From contig CALVSC010000007.1 of NCBI GenBank assembly GCA_944358855.1, positions 1 to 32,389 of the forward strand: DNA of 32,389 bases, read 5' to 3'. The DNA is from an uncultured Bacilli bacterium (GTDB taxonomy: Bacteria > Bacillota_I > Bacilli_A > RF39 > UBA660). Each line of letters begins with the position of its first letter. Position 1 is the stretch's first letter. Made by a program: the position numbers and the translations under genes. Positions 24,850 to 29,504 of this stretch are shown here, in pieces. Under the pieces are notes generated by a model, which ran no database searches, was not told where the DNA came from, and was given only the letters and a program-made list of their open reading frames with translations.

Positions 24850-25881
24850 TTATTCTAAAGTAGCACTTGAAGTACTATTTAATGATAAATCTGCAATTCT
24901 TCCATCTAAATATGCATAATATCCTGCGGCTGCTATCATAGTTGCATTATCTGTGCAATATTTCATAGGTGGAATTGATATTTCTACATTCATTTCTTGA
25001 CCTAATTTTTCAATTTCTGATCTTAAGCCTTTATTAGCTGCCACTCCTCCAGCAACAATGAGATATTTTATATTTTTGTCTTCTACTGCTTTTTTCGTTT
25101 TATTTATTACAGATTCTACTGCTACTTTTTGGAAAGAAGTTGCTAAATCTTCTTTATTTAATTTATTTCCTCTTTGTTCTTCATTATGTGCTAAGTTTAT
25201 CACGGCACTTTTTAAGCCACTGAATGAGAAATTATAGCTATCATCATGTAAGGGAATTGGTAATTTATAAGTTTGTTTCCCTGTTGCTGCTAATCGATCC
25301 AACTTTGGTCCTCCAGGATATTCTAGGCCGATGACTCTAGCTACTTTGTCATAACATTCTCCAATGGCATCATCTAAGGTACCACCAAGTTTTTTAAATT
25401 TATAATGGTCTGTCATTTCGATTAATTCAGTATGTCCGCCACTTACAACTAAAGCTAATAGAGGAAATTTAAATGGTCTTACAAGACTGTTTGCGTAAAT
25501 ATGACCTGCAATATGATGAACAGGTATTAATGGTTTTTGATATAACCAAGCTAATGTTTTAGCTGCTTCTAAACCAATTAATAGTGAACCAATTAATCCA
25601 GGTCCATATGTTATAGCGATGGCATCTACTTCATCCATTGACATTTCTGCTTTTTCTAAGCATTCCTCTAAAACGATAGTAATATTTTTTACATGATGAC
25701 GACTGGCAATTTCTGGTACAACTCCTCCAAAATCCTTGTGAACATCAATCTGGGATGATATTACAGTTGCAATTTCTTCTGTACCGTTTTTTACGATAGA
25801 AGCACTTGTTTCATCACAGCTACTTTCAATTCCTAAAATGTATATATCTTTTTTTTCTTGCATTTCCACCACTCTTTTCAT
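24850..25881 (-). CDS. tsaD: tRNA N6-adenosine threonylcarbamoyltransferase TsaD
   Basis: Catalytic subunit for t6A37 modification of ANN-decoding tRNAs, 343 aa, standard length. ASKHA-fold landmarks: GIESSCDETSASI at the N-terminus, HHIAGH (about residues 122-127, metal ligands), ALVVSGGHTELI, GECYDKVAR, NFSFSGLKSA and VAGGVAANKGLR. It transfers threonylcarbamoyl from TC-AMP, working with TsaB and TsaE, whose genes lie at 28411-29504 in a separate unit. The ATG at 25881 has AAGGA just upstream; a second in-frame ATG six codons later (MQEKK) is also possible. An extended -10 (TGATAAAAT) lies 10 nt before the ATG; no terminator separates it from the GNAT gene, so read-through from the arginine-leader operon is possible. 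Confidence 0.96.
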   Translation of the reverse strand: MKRVVEMQEKKDIYILGIESSCDETSASIVKNGTEEIATVISSQIDVHKDFGGVVPEIASRHHVKNITIVLEECLEKAEMSMDEVDAIAITYGPGLIGSLLIGLEAAKTLAWLYQKPLIPVHHIAGHIYANSLVRPFKFPLLALVVSGGHTELIEMTDHYKFKKLGGTLDDAIGECYDKVARVIGLEYPGGPKLDRLAATGKQTYKLPIPLHDDSYNFSFSGLKSAVINLAHNEEQRGNKLNKEDLATSFQKVAVESVINKTKKAVEDKNIKYLIVAGGVAANKGLRSEIEKLGQEMNVEISIPPMKYCTDNATMIAAAGYYAYLDGRIADLSLNSTSSATLE

Positions 25882-25890
25882 TTCTTCCTT

Positions 25891-25899
25891 ATTTTATCA
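25891..25899 (-). promoter_or_regulatory. Possible extended -10 of tsaD
   Basis: TGATAAAAT on the minus strand, identical to that before the nitroreductase (7394-7402), in the same TTTTATGATAAAAT context. It is very close to the start codon, so the leader would be only a few bases long. Confidence 0.4.
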
Positions 25900-25922
25900 T
25901 AAAACAGGATTTTTTCATAGTT

Positions 25923-26642
25923 TTAGCAAGCAATTTGTGGTTTCATTTGCAATACTTTTGCGGAAGGCGTTATTATTGCTCTTGTATTTTTATCTGCATA
26001 TACCGCATTTCCTTTTGATATTAATCCAATTCCTTCCTTTAATGGTTTCCACATATGTAATCTGTAATCACCTGTCGTTTCTGTTACATCTACCCATTCG
26101 GCAATTATTGTATCATCTTCTGTACAAATTTCCATTCCTGCTTGCGCCATTAACCATTCTGAATTCGAATTAATTAAATCTGTTCTCGCATATACCAAAT
26201 CAATATTCTTTTTTTGGGCATAATCAATCGCATAATGAATTAAAGTTCTGCACGCCCCTTTCCCCCTATATTCAGGGATTGTAGATAAGCCATAAAAATA
26301 TAAATTACTTGGCGTTTTATCCTGAGAGAAAAACTCCACCGTTTCATTTGGATAGTCATATATGCAACCATTCATAGATACAGGTCTTTTCTTTTCATCT
26401 AGATATAAAAATAGAATTCCCTTTTTATCATATAAAGCAAGTTCTTCCTTAGCTGCTTCTTCATCAATAATTTCTCCATATTGTTCTTCAAATGATTTTA
26501 ATAATGGTAATAGTATTTTGGCATTTTCCTCACTATATTTCATTGTTGCTATAAAGCAACCATTATCTAGGCATTGCAAAATATCAAATGATGTATTTTC
26601 ATTTTTTATTAATTGCATTTCTGTCTTTGGTTTTTGTATCAT
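25923..26642 (-). CDS. GNAT-family N-acetyltransferase, second gene of the arginine-leader operon
   Basis: Cytoplasmic acetyltransferase of 239 aa. The acetyl-CoA-binding motif A is clear: LSTIPEYRGKGACRTLIHYA (about residues 131-150), with R-G-x-G-A in the pyrophosphate loop, followed by ARTDLINSNSEWLMAQAGM (motif B). The N-terminal third is specific to this protein and may form the acceptor site. The substrate is unknown; an amino-acid or peptide amine is plausible given the operon partner. The start was set at the third-codon ATG (MIQKP), which is 9 nt after AGGAGG and one base beyond the M20 stop; the earlier ATG sits directly on the Shine-Dalgarno. It is co-transcribed with the M20 deacylase. 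Confidence 0.82.
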   Translation of the reverse strand: MIQKPKTEMQLIKNENTSFDILQCLDNGCFIATMKYSEENAKILLPLLKSFEEQYGEIIDEEAAKEELALYDKKGILFLYLDEKKRPVSMNGCIYDYPNETVEFFSQDKTPSNLYFYGLSTIPEYRGKGACRTLIHYAIDYAQKKNIDLVYARTDLINSNSEWLMAQAGMEICTEDDTIIAEWVDVTETTGDYRLHMWKPLKEGIGLISKGNAVYADKNTRAIITPSAKVLQMKPQIAC

Positions 26643-26643
26643 T

Positions 26644-27708
26644 TTAATCATCCTCCTTTAATATTTCTTCCCATATACAATACATTTTTAATAAACTTTC
26701 TTTTTCTACATACTCTTTTGGTGCATGAGCATAACCACCACTTGGATTTGTTAAAATTGTTGGTATTTTCTTGTCTGAAAAGTAGATAGCGTCACTTGTT
26801 GCTTCACTTGAAACAATTTCTGGGTACTTTCCTAATATTTTTTTACTAATCTCTATATATTTTTTTACATTTTTATTTTCTAAATCTGTTTTAAATAAAC
26901 TTCCAGCATGAATTGTTTTTATTTCTAGTTTTTTGTTTAGTGACTTTATATAGTTTAAAATGCTTTCTTTAGAATCTTCTGACGTATGACGAATATCGAT
27001 ATACATAGTTGCAGTCGCTGCTACGCTATTTAAGGCTTCTCCTCCTTTTATCATCGATAAGTTTACTGAAGTTTTGTAGTCATCAGATGAGGTTGGTAGT
27101 GGATATTTTTCAATTATTTTTTGATATATTCCATATAGAACTAAAATTGCATTTTCTCCATTGTAAGGTTGAGAGGCATGAGCTGATTTTGTTTTTATTG
27201 AAATTTCTAATTGAAGTTGTCCTTTTTCCTCTTTTACAATTTGTAAATTTTTTCCACCATCTGGAACTATTGCAAAATCTGTATTATAAATTGTTAATAA
27301 TTGTTTTGCACAGTTTCCTGTAATTTCTTCGTCTGATGTAATAAATAAAGCTACTTTCTTGGTAGTATTTAGATTTTTAAATAATTCAATTGCAGTTGCG
27401 ACACTTCCTTTCATGTCAAAAGAGCCGCGTCCTTTTATTTCTTTTTCGATTTCTATGCATTCATATTTCTCAGCTGGTACCACATCAATATGAGTGCAGA
27501 ATACGATATCTAAATTTTTTGATGTTGTATTGGCAATTACAATTGCTTTCTTTCCAGAAAATTCGTATTCTTTTATTTTTAGTTGTTCTGGCATTTCTCC
27601 TTTAATGTAATTAAATATTTTTTCAAATTCTAATTCATTTTTATCCGTAGTTTGATAAGACATTAATTCTTTTAAAATTGTAATGATATTATTTAGTTTA
27701 TTATTCAT
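26644..27708 (-). CDS. M20-family metallohydrolase (ArgE/DapE/ACY1-like deacylase)
   Basis: Zinc-dependent amidohydrolase or peptidase of 354 aa, standard length. Catalytic and metal residues are intact: CTHIDVVPA (His73, Asp75), GRGSFDMKG (bridging Asp98), TSDEEITG (catalytic Glu127, metal Glu128), VPDGGK (Asp150) and YAHAPKEY near the C-terminus (about His328). A lid/dimerisation domain occupies about 170-280 (KTKSAHASQPYNG). The family includes N-acetylornithine deacetylase, succinyl-DAP desuccinylase, carboxypeptidases and aminoacylases. The arginine-codon-rich attenuator directly upstream (27734-27863) favours an arginine- or ornithine-linked substrate such as N-acetylornithine or an Arg-containing peptide; this is inference. 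The start was taken at AGGAGGAAAACA-ATG; a longer reading frame runs into the terminator hairpin and is not credible. Confidence 0.88.
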   Translation of the reverse strand: MNNKLNNIITILKELMSYQTTDKNELEFEKIFNYIKGEMPEQLKIKEYEFSGKKAIVIANTTSKNLDIVFCTHIDVVPAEKYECIEIEKEIKGRGSFDMKGSVATAIELFKNLNTTKKVALFITSDEEITGNCAKQLLTIYNTDFAIVPDGGKNLQIVKEEKGQLQLEISIKTKSAHASQPYNGENAILVLYGIYQKIIEKYPLPTSSDDYKTSVNLSMIKGGEALNSVAATATMYIDIRHTSEDSKESILNYIKSLNKKLEIKTIHAGSLFKTDLENKNVKKYIEISKKILGKYPEIVSSEATSDAIYFSDKKIPTILTNPSGGYAHAPKEYVEKESLLKMYCIWEEILKEDD

Positions 27709-27733
27709 TGTTTTCCTCCTATTTTTTAAAATA

Positions 27734-27765
27734 CAAAAAGACCTATGCTTGTATTGCATAGGTCT
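27734..27765 (-). terminator. Attenuator terminator upstream of the M20 gene
   Basis: AGACCTATGC-AATACAA-GCATAGGTCT (10-bp perfect stem) followed by TTTTT on the minus strand, 26 nt before the M20 start codon. There is no gene between it and the leader peptide, so it can only control read-through. Confidence 0.88.
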
Positions 27766-27863
27766 CATCTATTACCATATATGATAATCCTTTATGACTT
27801 CCGCAGATACAAGCACGACAATAACACTTGCATCTGCGATTTTTTTATCGCGTCCTCAAGTGT
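27746..27863 (-). promoter_or_regulatory. Attenuator with mutually exclusive hairpins, arginine-sensing by inference
   Basis: On the minus strand, segment 1 (ACACTTG, 27863-27857, in leader codons 16-18) can pair with segment 2 (CAAGTGT, 27830-27824). Within that pairing GCGAT (27851-27847) also pairs with ATCGC (27840-27836). Segment 2 can instead form a 12-bp stem with segment 3: CGCAGATGCAAG (27838-27827) with CTTGTATCTGCG (27813-27802). Segment 3 can also pair by TGCTTGTAT (27815-27807) with ATACAAGCA (27754-27746), which occupies the loop and 3' arm of the terminator. So 1:2 allows 3:4 (read-through), while 2:3 frees the terminator. Ribosome stalling at the first Arg codons (10-13) leaves segment 1 free and would favour read-through. 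Pairings are seen in the sequence; the switching model is inferred. Confidence 0.75.
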
Positions 27864-27910
27864 CTTCGCAATCTACGTCTACGGATAATATTAGTCATAA
27901 GTAAAATCAT
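27845..27910 (-). CDS. Arginine-rich leader peptide, 21 aa
   Basis: A short reading frame with a strong ribosome-binding site, AGGAAGG, 6 nt before the ATG (27910-27908), and a TAA stop at 27847-27845. Eight of 21 codons are Arg: codons 10-13 in a row, 15, 16, 19 and 21, using CGT, AGA, CGA and AGG. The N-terminal part (MILLMTNII) is hydrophobic. No homology is claimed; the value of the peptide is its translation. Codon content, position between a consensus promoter and a terminator, and overlap of codons 16-18 with a hairpin arm match amino-acid biosynthesis leader peptides of the trp/his type. A second ATG at codon 5 lacks its own ribosome-binding site. Confidence 0.8.
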   Translation of the reverse strand: MILLMTNIIRRRRLRRHLRTR

Positions 27911-27955
27911 ATATATCCTTCCTTTCTTTTTTCCACACCAAATGTGTGTATGCTG

Positions 27956-27984
27956 ATTTTATCAAAGATTTTCTATTTTGTCAA
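27956..27984 (-). promoter_or_regulatory. Consensus promoter of the leader peptide - M20 - GNAT operon
   Basis: TTGACA (27984-27979), 17-nt spacer ending in TGA, TAAAAT (27961-27956) on the minus strand. A small CACAC/GTGTG hairpin (27948-27934) lies near the expected transcript start, then AAGGAAGG and the leader ATG. Confidence 0.85.
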
Positions 27985-27994
27985 ACATTTTAAA

Positions 27995-28029
27995 ATTAAA
28001 AGAGCAAGATTCTCTATCTATCTTGCTCT
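27995..28029 (-). terminator. Terminator of the tsaE-tsaB-rimI operon
   Basis: AGAGCAAGAT-agatagaga-ATCTTGCTCT followed by TTTAATTTT on the minus strand. The rimI stop codon (28014-28016) lies in the loop. Confidence 0.85.
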
Positions 28030-28421
28030 CTTTCCATTAATATTCCATCTATACCTTGATAATATCCTTTTCGCATTGCTTTTTCCTTAAAATTAAATTT
28101 CTTGTATAAATTAATCGCTGGTATATTATCTTTTTTTACTTCTAAAGTAATATTTTTATCCACAAGTTCTATCATTTTTTTTAGTAGTTTTGTGGCTTTT
28201 CCACAGTTTCTGTTGAAAACTTTTACTTCTATCTGATTAATTTCTGCTCTTTCATAGATATCACTGTAGTATAAATAAGCAATAATTTTATCATTTTCAA
28301 CATCAATTAAATAATGACCAAACGGATTGTTTTCTAAATCTGTTTTAATATTTTCTTTAGGTAAGAATTTGTCATTAGGAAGTTTATTAATTTCTTCTAT
28401 TTTATCAATCTTATGCAACAT
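28014..28421 (-). CDS. rimI: RimI-like GNAT acetyltransferase
   Basis: Small GNAT protein of 135 aa. Motif A is degenerate but recognisable, VFNRNCGKATKLLKKMIE (about residues 67-84; R-N-x-G-x-A loop). It is followed by ITLEVKKDNIPAINLYKKFNF, the N-x-x-A-x-x-x-Y-x-x-x-x-F motif B typical of RimI-type enzymes, and a C-terminal YYQGIDGILMERE. In bacteria rimI commonly follows tsaB; RimI can acetylate the N-terminus of ribosomal protein S18, though the target here is not proven. It overlaps tsaB by 11 nt and closes the operon with a terminator. The gene symbol rests on context plus motifs. Confidence 0.8.
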   Translation of the reverse strand: MLHKIDKIEEINKLPNDKFLPKENIKTDLENNPFGHYLIDVENDKIIAYLYYSDIYERAEINQIEVKVFNRNCGKATKLLKKMIELVDKNITLEVKKDNIPAINLYKKFNFKEKAMRKGYYQGIDGILMEREQDR

Positions 28422-29049
28422 GTTTTTTACTTTCTTCCGCTTCGGTAAGTTTTAAGTAATTTGGATTTACAGCGTGTGGATTGCAGTCTTTTTTATCCTT
28501 ATATTTCTTTACAATTTCTAAAATATTAGGACTGTATGCTTCTATTTTTTTATAATCCACTTTAATTAAATCTTTATCATTTGTAATTACTTTATAAGAA
28601 TCTAATTTATTCAACTCACTTTGTAATTTTTCATAGGTAATGTAAGTTGGAGCTAAATACTCTTCCTCATTTTTTCCATATATCGCTGCATAACAATATC
28701 CTCTTCTAGCATCTATCATAGGTACCTTAATCTCGTCATTTGTTGTTGATGTTGCCATTGCTTCTAAAGCAGTAATTGTTGTGATTGGTACTTTTAAGCT
28801 CCATGCATAAACTTTCGCTATTGTAATTCCTATTCTAATACCTGTAAATGAACCAGGACCATTTACGACAATTATTTTTTTTATATCTTTTGGTGTAATT
28901 CCAGTATTTTCAAACATAGATACAATTTCTGGTAGAGCTACTTGAGATAAATCATGCCCATACTCTTTTTTTATTTCTGTTACTAGTTTGTCTTTATCCA
29001 CAATTCCTGTGTATAAAAAGTTTGATGATGTATCAATGTACAATATCAT
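28411..29049 (-). CDS. tsaB: tRNA t6A modification protein TsaB
   Basis: Non-catalytic ASKHA-fold partner of TsaD in threonylcarbamoyladenosine synthesis, 212 aa, typical length. Recognised by the N-terminal MILYIDTSSNFLYTGIV strand pair, the diagnostic VNGPGSFTGIRIGITIAK (about residues 62-79), ITALEAMA and DARRGYCYAAIY (about 114-125). TsaB dimerises with TsaD and binds TsaE. Its ATG overlaps the tsaE stop (ATGA, 4 nt) and it overlaps rimI, giving a tight tsaE-tsaB-rimI operon. The C-terminus ends in a charged tail with NPNYLKLTEAEE, normal for Firmicutes TsaB proteins. Confidence 0.95.
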   Translation of the reverse strand: MILYIDTSSNFLYTGIVDKDKLVTEIKKEYGHDLSQVALPEIVSMFENTGITPKDIKKIIVVNGPGSFTGIRIGITIAKVYAWSLKVPITTITALEAMATSTTNDEIKVPMIDARRGYCYAAIYGKNEEEYLAPTYITYEKLQSELNKLDSYKVITNDKDLIKVDYKKIEAYSPNILEIVKKYKDKKDCNPHAVNPNYLKLTEAEESKKHVA

Positions 29050-29504
29050 ACAATCGCCTCACATAATTCTTCATATTTCTTTCCGTGAGGAATTAATGTA
29101 ATCGTTCTTTTATTTTCATCTTCTGATGAATTTTTAATTTTAATATCCAATCTTTTTTCTGGTAAGTAATCAGGAATCATATCTGCCCATTCAATGATGG
29201 TAATACCACCACGAGTATAATATTCTTCAATTCCTAAATCTTCTACTTTTCCGTCTAAACGATATACATCCATATGGTATAAAGGTAATTCTCCTGATGT
29301 ATATTCCTTAATAATGTTAAATGTTGGAGAGGTAATTTCTTCTTTTACTTCAAGTGCTTCTGCAAAGCCTTTTGTAAATAATGTTTTTCCACTACCCAAG
29401 TCTCCTTCTAGGCAAATCACCATGTTTGGAAATTTCTCTGATTCAATATTTTGTGCTAATTCAATTGTATCTTCTTCTGAATAAGTTGTTACTTTATAAT
29501 CCAT
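29046..29504 (-). CDS. tsaE: tRNA t6A ATPase TsaE
   Basis: P-loop ATPase needed for turnover of the TsaB-TsaD complex, 152 aa, normal length. The Walker A is GDLGSGKT (about residues 35-42). SPTFNIIKEY (about 58-67) is the switch-like motif with conserved Thr, HMDVYRL (about 76-82) carries the Asp, and IIEWADMIPDYLP (about 102-114) holds the family's E-W motif. First of the tsaE-tsaB-rimI operon. An extended -10 (TGGTATAAT) lies 20 nt before the ATG and abuts the T-tract of the tldD-tldE terminator. Confidence 0.96.
   Translation of the reverse strand: MDYKVTTYSEEDTIELAQNIESEKFPNMVICLEGDLGSGKTLFTKGFAEALEVKEEITSPTFNIIKEYTSGELPLYHMDVYRLDGKVEDLGIEEYYTRGGITIIEWADMIPDYLPEKRLDIKIKNSSEDENKRTITLIPHGKKYEELCEAIV

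Follow-up and report, generated by a model that had tools for sequence, protein, structure and literature searches.

The attenuators of the proteobacterial his, trp and leu operons (RF00514, Trp_leader and others) couple a short open reading frame (ORF), equipped with a Shine-Dalgarno (SD) sequence and a run of regulatory codons, to a stall-dependent choice between an antiterminator and an intrinsic terminator, and their untranslated RNA terminates. Gram-positive bacteria are generally taught to rely instead on T-boxes, riboswitches and ArgR. T-boxes (RF00230) likewise provide amino-acid-specific control of transcription termination, although they read tRNA directly, without translation. Leader peptides for histidine were nevertheless proposed in Firmicutes in 2010 (Naville and Gautheret; PMC2965389) and extended in 2022 (Rodionov et al.; PMC9413887), covering Bacilli, Peptostreptococcaceae and Erysipelotrichales, where His-codon leaders stand in front of hisS/hisZ and his operons. 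Neither an arginine version nor a scaffold common to two amino acids was found in the relevant sections of these two papers, supplementary alignments excluded. Consecutive Arg codons in the leader ORF orf34 of Salmonella speF sense arginine and alter mRNA folding (PMC6386406), but this gammaproteobacterial system has a single target and works through Rho, sequestration of the ribosome-binding site and RNase G decay, with no intrinsic terminator. A Gram-positive leader peptide, rbfL of S. aureus, also senses arginine through Arg codons (PMC13009471); it acts, however, on translation by blocking the rbf ribosome-binding site, has eight codons and no attenuator fold, and represses when arginine is low.

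The window, a contig of 32,389 nt from an uncultured Bacilli bacterium (CALVSC010000007.1, assembly GCA_944358855.1; source genome 1.25 Mb, 74% complete), contains on its minus strand, from 27984 to 27734, a leader that is likely (probability about 0.86, in the absence of transcript or expression data) to be an arginine-specific, ribosome-mediated transcription attenuator controlling an M20 deacylase operon. An earlier, sequence-only reading had proposed such an arginine-sensing attenuator, and all of the elements that it claimed are present. The promoter (TTGACA-17-TAAAAT; 27956..27984) matches at 11/12 positions and is followed by the SD sequence AGGAAGG (27917..27923) and the leader ORF MILLMTNIIRRRRLRRHLRTR (27845..27910), which contains eight Arg codons, four of them consecutive at codons 10-13 (CGT AGA CGT AGA; 27872..27883). 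Downstream are a middle hairpin of 12 pairs, one of them G-U (CGCAGATGCAAG/CTTGTATCTGCG; 27838-27827 with 27813-27802), and an intrinsic terminator hairpin followed by a U-tract (27738..27766), which ends 26 nt before the ATG of the M20 gene (27708). The terminator was counted at 11 pairs. Of the features expected of a trp/his-type attenuator, an SD sequence and an ORF with a regulatory codon run are represented, as is, beyond the ORF, an antiterminator that cannot form together with the intrinsic terminator; this anatomy is shown computationally. The leader RNA fold has a z score of -8.0, with none of 200 shuffled sequences equally stable, and in 200,000 shuffles of the leader ORF RRRR arose 59 times (0.03%) and eight or more Arg codons twice; neither the fold nor the Arg run is a product of chance. 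At the presumed 5' end of the transcript (27930-27950) is a small hairpin whose form is constant between species while its sequence varies (CACAC/GTGTG, ACACGCG/TGCGTG and CACGAGA/TCTCGTG, as read by eye), and it could conceivably protect the transcript. A second small ORF further downstream, MQVLLSCLYLRKS, was considered and rejected, being unconserved and broken by a stop codon in G009 (read by eye).

The two alternative folds that had been claimed also held, and their pairings could be located. Segment 1 (ACACTTG; 27857..27863), within the leader ORF, pairs with segment 2 at 27830-27824 (ACACTTG:CAAGTGT). Segment 2 (CGCAGATGCAAG; 27827..27838) has segments 1 and 3 as alternative partners, and segment 3 (TGCTTGTATCTGCG; 27802..27815) can pair with segment 2 or with segment 4 (ATACAAGCA; 27746..27754), which lies in the terminator loop and 3' arm; the latter pairing is the 9-bp antiterminator TGCTTGTAT:ATACAAGCA (27815-27807 with 27754-27746). 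A third partner of segment 3, absent from the earlier reading, is segment 1' (TCCGTAGA; 27878..27885), which occupies codons 9-11 inside the codon run and pairs with it when the RNA is ribosome-free (TCCGTAGA:TCTGCGGA; 27885-27878 with 27807-27800). In the untranslated leader this produces a nested fold (27792..27900) consisting of TTATGAC/GTCATAA, then TCCGTAGA/TCTGCGGA (1':3) and then ACACTTG/CAAGTGT (1:2). The additional segment capturing segment 3 distinguishes the leader from the proteobacterial attenuators, as do its Arg codons, host lineage, targets and lack of any sequence or model match.

It is proposed that when Arg-tRNA is ample the ribosome would pass the Arg codons, reach the stop codon and mask segment 1, so that 2:3 would pair, segment 4 would remain unpaired, the terminator would form and transcription would be switched off. 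When Arg-tRNA is scarce, the ribosome would stall at Arg codons 10-12, masking segment 1' and not segment 1; the exposed segment 1 would pair with segment 2 and release segment 3, which would trap segment 4 before the 3' arm of the terminator is made, and the deacylase would be transcribed. In untranslated RNA the 1':3 fold would sequester the antiterminator strand and lead to termination. Translation of the peptide, termination and the role of arginine as the signal are inferred.

The switching of folds on which this scheme depends was modelled by folding each leader as far as the terminator loop while a ribosome footprint was stepped along it codon by codon. A truncated transcript lacking the terminator 3' arm was taken as the decision point because a constrained full-length fold always favours the terminator. 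For the window leader, modelled as a transcript ending with segment 4, the antiterminator is predicted with a probability of 0.93-0.95 as long as the A site lies at any of codons 9-12; the value falls to 0.08 at codon 13 and is zero further along or without translation. All 20 Arg leaders of the comparative set described below had at least five expected antiterminator pairs with the ribosome awaiting the first Arg, compared with 4/20 at the stop codon and 8/20 when ribosome-free. Along the scan the antiterminator was favoured until the ribosome had reached the first two codons of the run and was lost 3-4 codons later, and this loss at the run end was robust to a footprint of 11, 14 or 16 nt. 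The order of control inferred in the earlier reading, in which a stall at early Arg codons gives read-through, is therefore supported by predicted folding. Its reservation that the logic may differ from trp, taken to mean that untranslated RNA would antiterminate, was not borne out for the Arg leaders, which are predicted mostly to terminate when untranslated because segment 1' captures segment 3, whereas it was borne out for most His-codon relatives, 34/37 of which reach at least five expected antiterminator pairs untranslated. Stall-dependent antitermination is thus clear in the Arg leaders and graded in the His leaders, by computed folding only. Wherever the ribosome is placed, with few exceptions, the equilibrium fold of the full-length RNA favours the terminator, so that the choice must fall during transcription; a kinetic switch, as in trp, is accordingly an assumption of the scheme, and the folding model omits RNA polymerase pausing and co-transcriptional kinetics.

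DNA searches detected a second copy of the leader in the source genome, also absent from the earlier reading, upstream of an unrelated gene, and three further copies divided between two congeneric species. Homologues at 85-87% identity exist, this second copy among them, and about 90 nt are almost invariant within the genus, loops included. Copies located before orthologous genes are the most alike (ACAACAAT, for example, is common to both copies before the unknown gene), and the duplication therefore appears to predate the species split. The second Arg leader copy (G000:C1:42513-42673, L002 and L019; G009:C1:354747-354911, L010 and L018) precedes proteins of approximately 290-300 aa without a Pfam match, for which a tie to arginine supply is predicted from the leader. 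That the copy in the source genome is followed by a protein belonging to no known family counts against the arginine explanation.

A covariance model trained on five Arg leaders of this one genus (R1) matched members in other genera and one His leader. A second model (R2), trained on 14 sequences of which 13 were Arg leaders and one a His leader, matched in 41/386 genomes of the family and in 28/385 genomes of the order, every one of the latter within the window's own family, and added 36 His leaders. The exchange of Arg for His codons was not built in by hand, since R1 contained Arg leaders only and R2 a single His leader. With a third model (R3) no member was found outside the family among 296 genomes of the class, bar one match (L093, E 1e-3) that lacks a leader ORF and is attributed to chance; L008, a 55-nt match in the valS region, and L028 were also rejected as homologous leaders. 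In the genomes searched, the RNA family is so far known from one Bacilli-like taxonomic family, and its His-codon members precede histidine genes. The leader had no match in phages or plasmids when these were searched at distant sensitivity, and there is consequently no sign of a mobile origin; four matches in an exact-pattern scan of viral contigs lie inside unrelated sequence and were dismissed as chance.

The comparative set consists of 57 distinct aligned leaders, all from the window's taxonomic family. A promoter-like site with at least 10/12 matches is located upstream of 95% of them versus 6% of control segments, an SD-like motif precedes the start codon in 55/57, and U-rich tails are found in 57/57. 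Standard pairs make up 92.5% of the nested fold and terminator in 14 sequences and 88.2% in all 57, with two-sided changes at 29/48 and 36/48 pairs, respectively, and the covariation score of 0.474 compares with 0.164 for shuffled and at most 0.114 for slid controls. The alignments (A5 included) were fitted to the model structure, so that pair counts lean towards that structure, and kinship among the sequences inflates the shuffle statistics. Helix 7, the terminator, is 95.5% paired with two-sided changes in 11/11 pairs, and helix 5 (1:2) is 98.7% paired with such changes in 3/7. For sequences less than 75% identical, duplexes formed within a sequence were more stable than those formed across sequences, both for 2:3 (-12.7 versus -10.6 kcal/mol) and for 3:4 (-15.1 versus -11.8 kcal/mol). 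This comparative sequence evidence shows a real cis-regulatory RNA, without an in vivo test.

Every one of the 57 leaders encodes a short peptide in which Arg is repeated in a run (20 leaders, e.g., MKLFQTNNRRRLS, MNYFMNRRRRYNILTLESR and MSYLILNIRRRGMITLVMR) or His is (37 leaders, e.g., MNLFTRQHHHNNLHLLIRH and MLNQIIKFNHHHNSLHLLIRH), the run beginning at codon 7-12; these counts include L037, whose leader ORF was hand-picked for the ribosome-folding analysis, and L033, a His leader with HVH and no unbroken run. All 20 Arg leaders, which come from many genera, retain the Arg run, with synonymous CGN/AGA exchange. The sequence-only reading would have been refuted if relatives failed to conserve the Arg codons or the stems; the outcome, which includes the 36/48 pairs showing two-sided change, was the opposite; arginine dependence itself remains an inference without measurement.

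The conservation of the codons could in principle have another source. If the RNA were a constitutive 5' leader whose hairpins merely set the transcript level, Arg codons might be kept for their pairing in 1', and in the window they do sit in the 1':3 helix, so that pairing alone could keep CGTAGACGT. The Arg run is, however, kept with other nucleotides (AGA-AGA-CGC, CGA-AGA-AGA-CGT, AGA-CGA-AGA), and because ten distinct codon strings write it over the 20 leaders, a base-pairing constraint alone is insufficient. Moreover, most rows of the alignment have no letters in helix 2 (1':3; gaps in 32-44/57), and the His leaders are among them, yet HHH is kept. This explanation is considered very improbable. 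A metabolite-binding riboswitch or protein-binding leader, in which the ORF would be incidental and the conserved core a ligand pocket, is favoured by the near-invariance of the core within the genus and by a weak resemblance of some His relatives, in their core hairpin, to RF04312 (E 0.1, below cut-off). Between genera, though, the invariant core is lost while the ORF, codon run and stems are kept; the run in 57/57, the SD-like motif in 55/57, the synonymous exchange at Arg codons and the absence of any Rfam match also speak against this alternative, for which little room is left.

The genes downstream of the leaders follow the codons. One clade of M20 deacylases is found downstream of 17/20 Arg leaders. 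His leaders are located upstream of hisS (TIGR00442, E 4e-103) in 16 cases and hisG (TIGR00070, E 4e-38) in two, where the regulatory codon agrees with the metabolism of the target, as well as upstream of another M20 clade (three directly, two with M20 as the second gene), a phosphoribosyltransferase-like/TIGR00725 operon (eight) and other genes besides. The his genes occur exclusively behind His leaders (Fisher p = 7e-5), and the M20 proteins split on a tree into two clades, one belonging to Arg leaders and the other to His leaders (SH-aLRT 100). On this comparative evidence, a single RNA scaffold carries exchangeable sensor codons that track the target gene, and because His codons replace Arg codons on the same scaffold before histidine genes, ribosome-sensed attenuation is the likely mechanism. 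The same exchange bears on a third alternative, a leader of the macrolide +X+ type that senses a drug or the nascent peptide, in which an Arg-X-Arg stall would induce the downstream genes in response to ribosome-targeting antibiotics and not to arginine shortage. In its favour, the peptide contains RRR, RLR and R-H-L-R and is highly conserved within the genus, and Arg-Leu-Arg leaders with structured RNA are known before hflX (PMC8632094). Against it, HHH replaces RRR on the same scaffold before hisS and hisG, the targets are deacylases and not resistance genes, the +X+ criterion of a conserved Arg/Lys-X-Arg/Lys stall motif preceding a resistance gene is not fulfilled, residues flanking the run differ between genera (MKLFQTNNRRRLS versus MNYFMNRRRRYNILTLESR) and the Leu of RLR is absent in most leaders, making this alternative highly unlikely.

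Several further loci behind these leaders were recorded. The eight His leaders of the phosphoribosyltransferase-like/TIGR00725 set (L039, L041, L046, L051, L061, L062, L071 and L073) precede genes for a protein of about 85 aa, a phosphoribosyltransferase-like protein and a TIGR00725 family protein, a set without an assigned role that is presumably histidine-linked. Four His leaders (L045, L052, L057 and L059) are upstream of a 466-484-aa protein with no Pfam match, and another (L068) is followed by a 259-aa protein without a Pfam match and then hisS. An Arg leader, MKNIINLIRRRYK (L058; G531:C44), is located upstream of a B3/4-domain protein (PF03483) and not M20. In two species of one genus (L025 and L026; G178 and G281) the Arg leader is followed by an M20 gene that is divided at the same place into 88-89 and 251 aa, for which a shared frameshift or recoding is one possibility.

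In the window, the regulated gene encodes an M20 family deacylase/peptidase (ArgE/DapE-like; 26644..27708, minus strand) and overlaps by 8 nt a GNAT acetyltransferase gene (25923..26651, minus strand) with which it is presumably co-transcribed. The leader and the M20-GNAT genes are flanked by tsaE-tsaB-rimI-like genes and tsaD (24850-29504). Of the genomes in the genus, exactly the three that bear the leader, and no others, were found to have the M20 orthologue. The closest solved relatives of the protein are M20 enzymes, several of them named acetylornithine deacetylase or succinyl-diaminopimelate desuccinylase, and it falls below the curated cut-offs for both names. Its substrate is unknown, the link to arginine resting on the leader itself; that the enzyme yields arginine is predicted from the leader alone, and release of arginine by it is inferred.

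Comparison with known RNA families gave no Rfam match for the leader, and His_leader (RF00514) and the other curated leaders gave none at the gathering score or at E values up to 5. T-boxes (RF00230) were not detected in the window, although they occur elsewhere in its genome, and in the genus there are 10-16 matches per genome. ArgR was detected in none of 16 genomes of the genus by a search that was positive in 8/14 control genomes. The trpB motif (RF04312; PMC11109978) resembles the leader in having a hairpin and a terminator, with the antiterminator strand in the right shoulder of the hairpin; its authors described it as a candidate riboswitch that lacks a leader peptide and did not exclude classic attenuation. 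The window leader does not match it, and two His leaders score 33-35 bits against a gathering score of 59 (E 0.1-0.25). Searches for the motif across the class and phylum gave sub-threshold matches only. Three of these (L094, L095 and L096, at ~1425-1640) lie behind short Tyr/Phe-rich ORFs (MKNINITSSNRSYFFSYFR, MNSTLTNLYDYSYYC and MNSNLTTRFYYSYYC) and upstream of transporter-like genes. That the riboswitch candidate is itself a leader-peptide attenuator is no more than a possibility.

The principle of leader-peptide attenuation is known, and the His branch shares it with the Firmicutes His attenuators. The sequence-only reading had held a classical Arg leader peptide to be unusual in Gram-positives; His leader peptides are known in Firmicutes, and no arginine leader-peptide transcription attenuator in Gram-positives was found in the full-text literature searched, most subscription journals lying outside it. 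On that literature, an RNA family that targets M20 and whose sensor codons can be exchanged between Arg and His is likely to be new. A bolder reading, which stands or falls as one claim and for which the odds are slightly less than even, is that a modular attenuator scaffold, swappable between Arg and His, has been copied in front of numerous genes within a single uncultured Bacilli-like family, where it would work beside T-boxes and replace ArgR; that its leader codons would reveal the products of otherwise unassigned enzymes, namely two M20 hydrolases, one yielding arginine and the other histidine, and of several unknown proteins; and that the design may have a third, aromatic branch in the orphan trpB motif. 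The finding would mean that a leader-peptide attenuator whose sensor codons can be exchanged has arisen and spread in a lineage that has T-boxes and lacks detectable ArgR, and the leader family would constitute a natural experiment on change of attenuator specificity. As each leader names the relevant amino acid, it may also provide a functional clue for M20 hydrolases and other unassigned genes in uncultured bacteria with small genomes.
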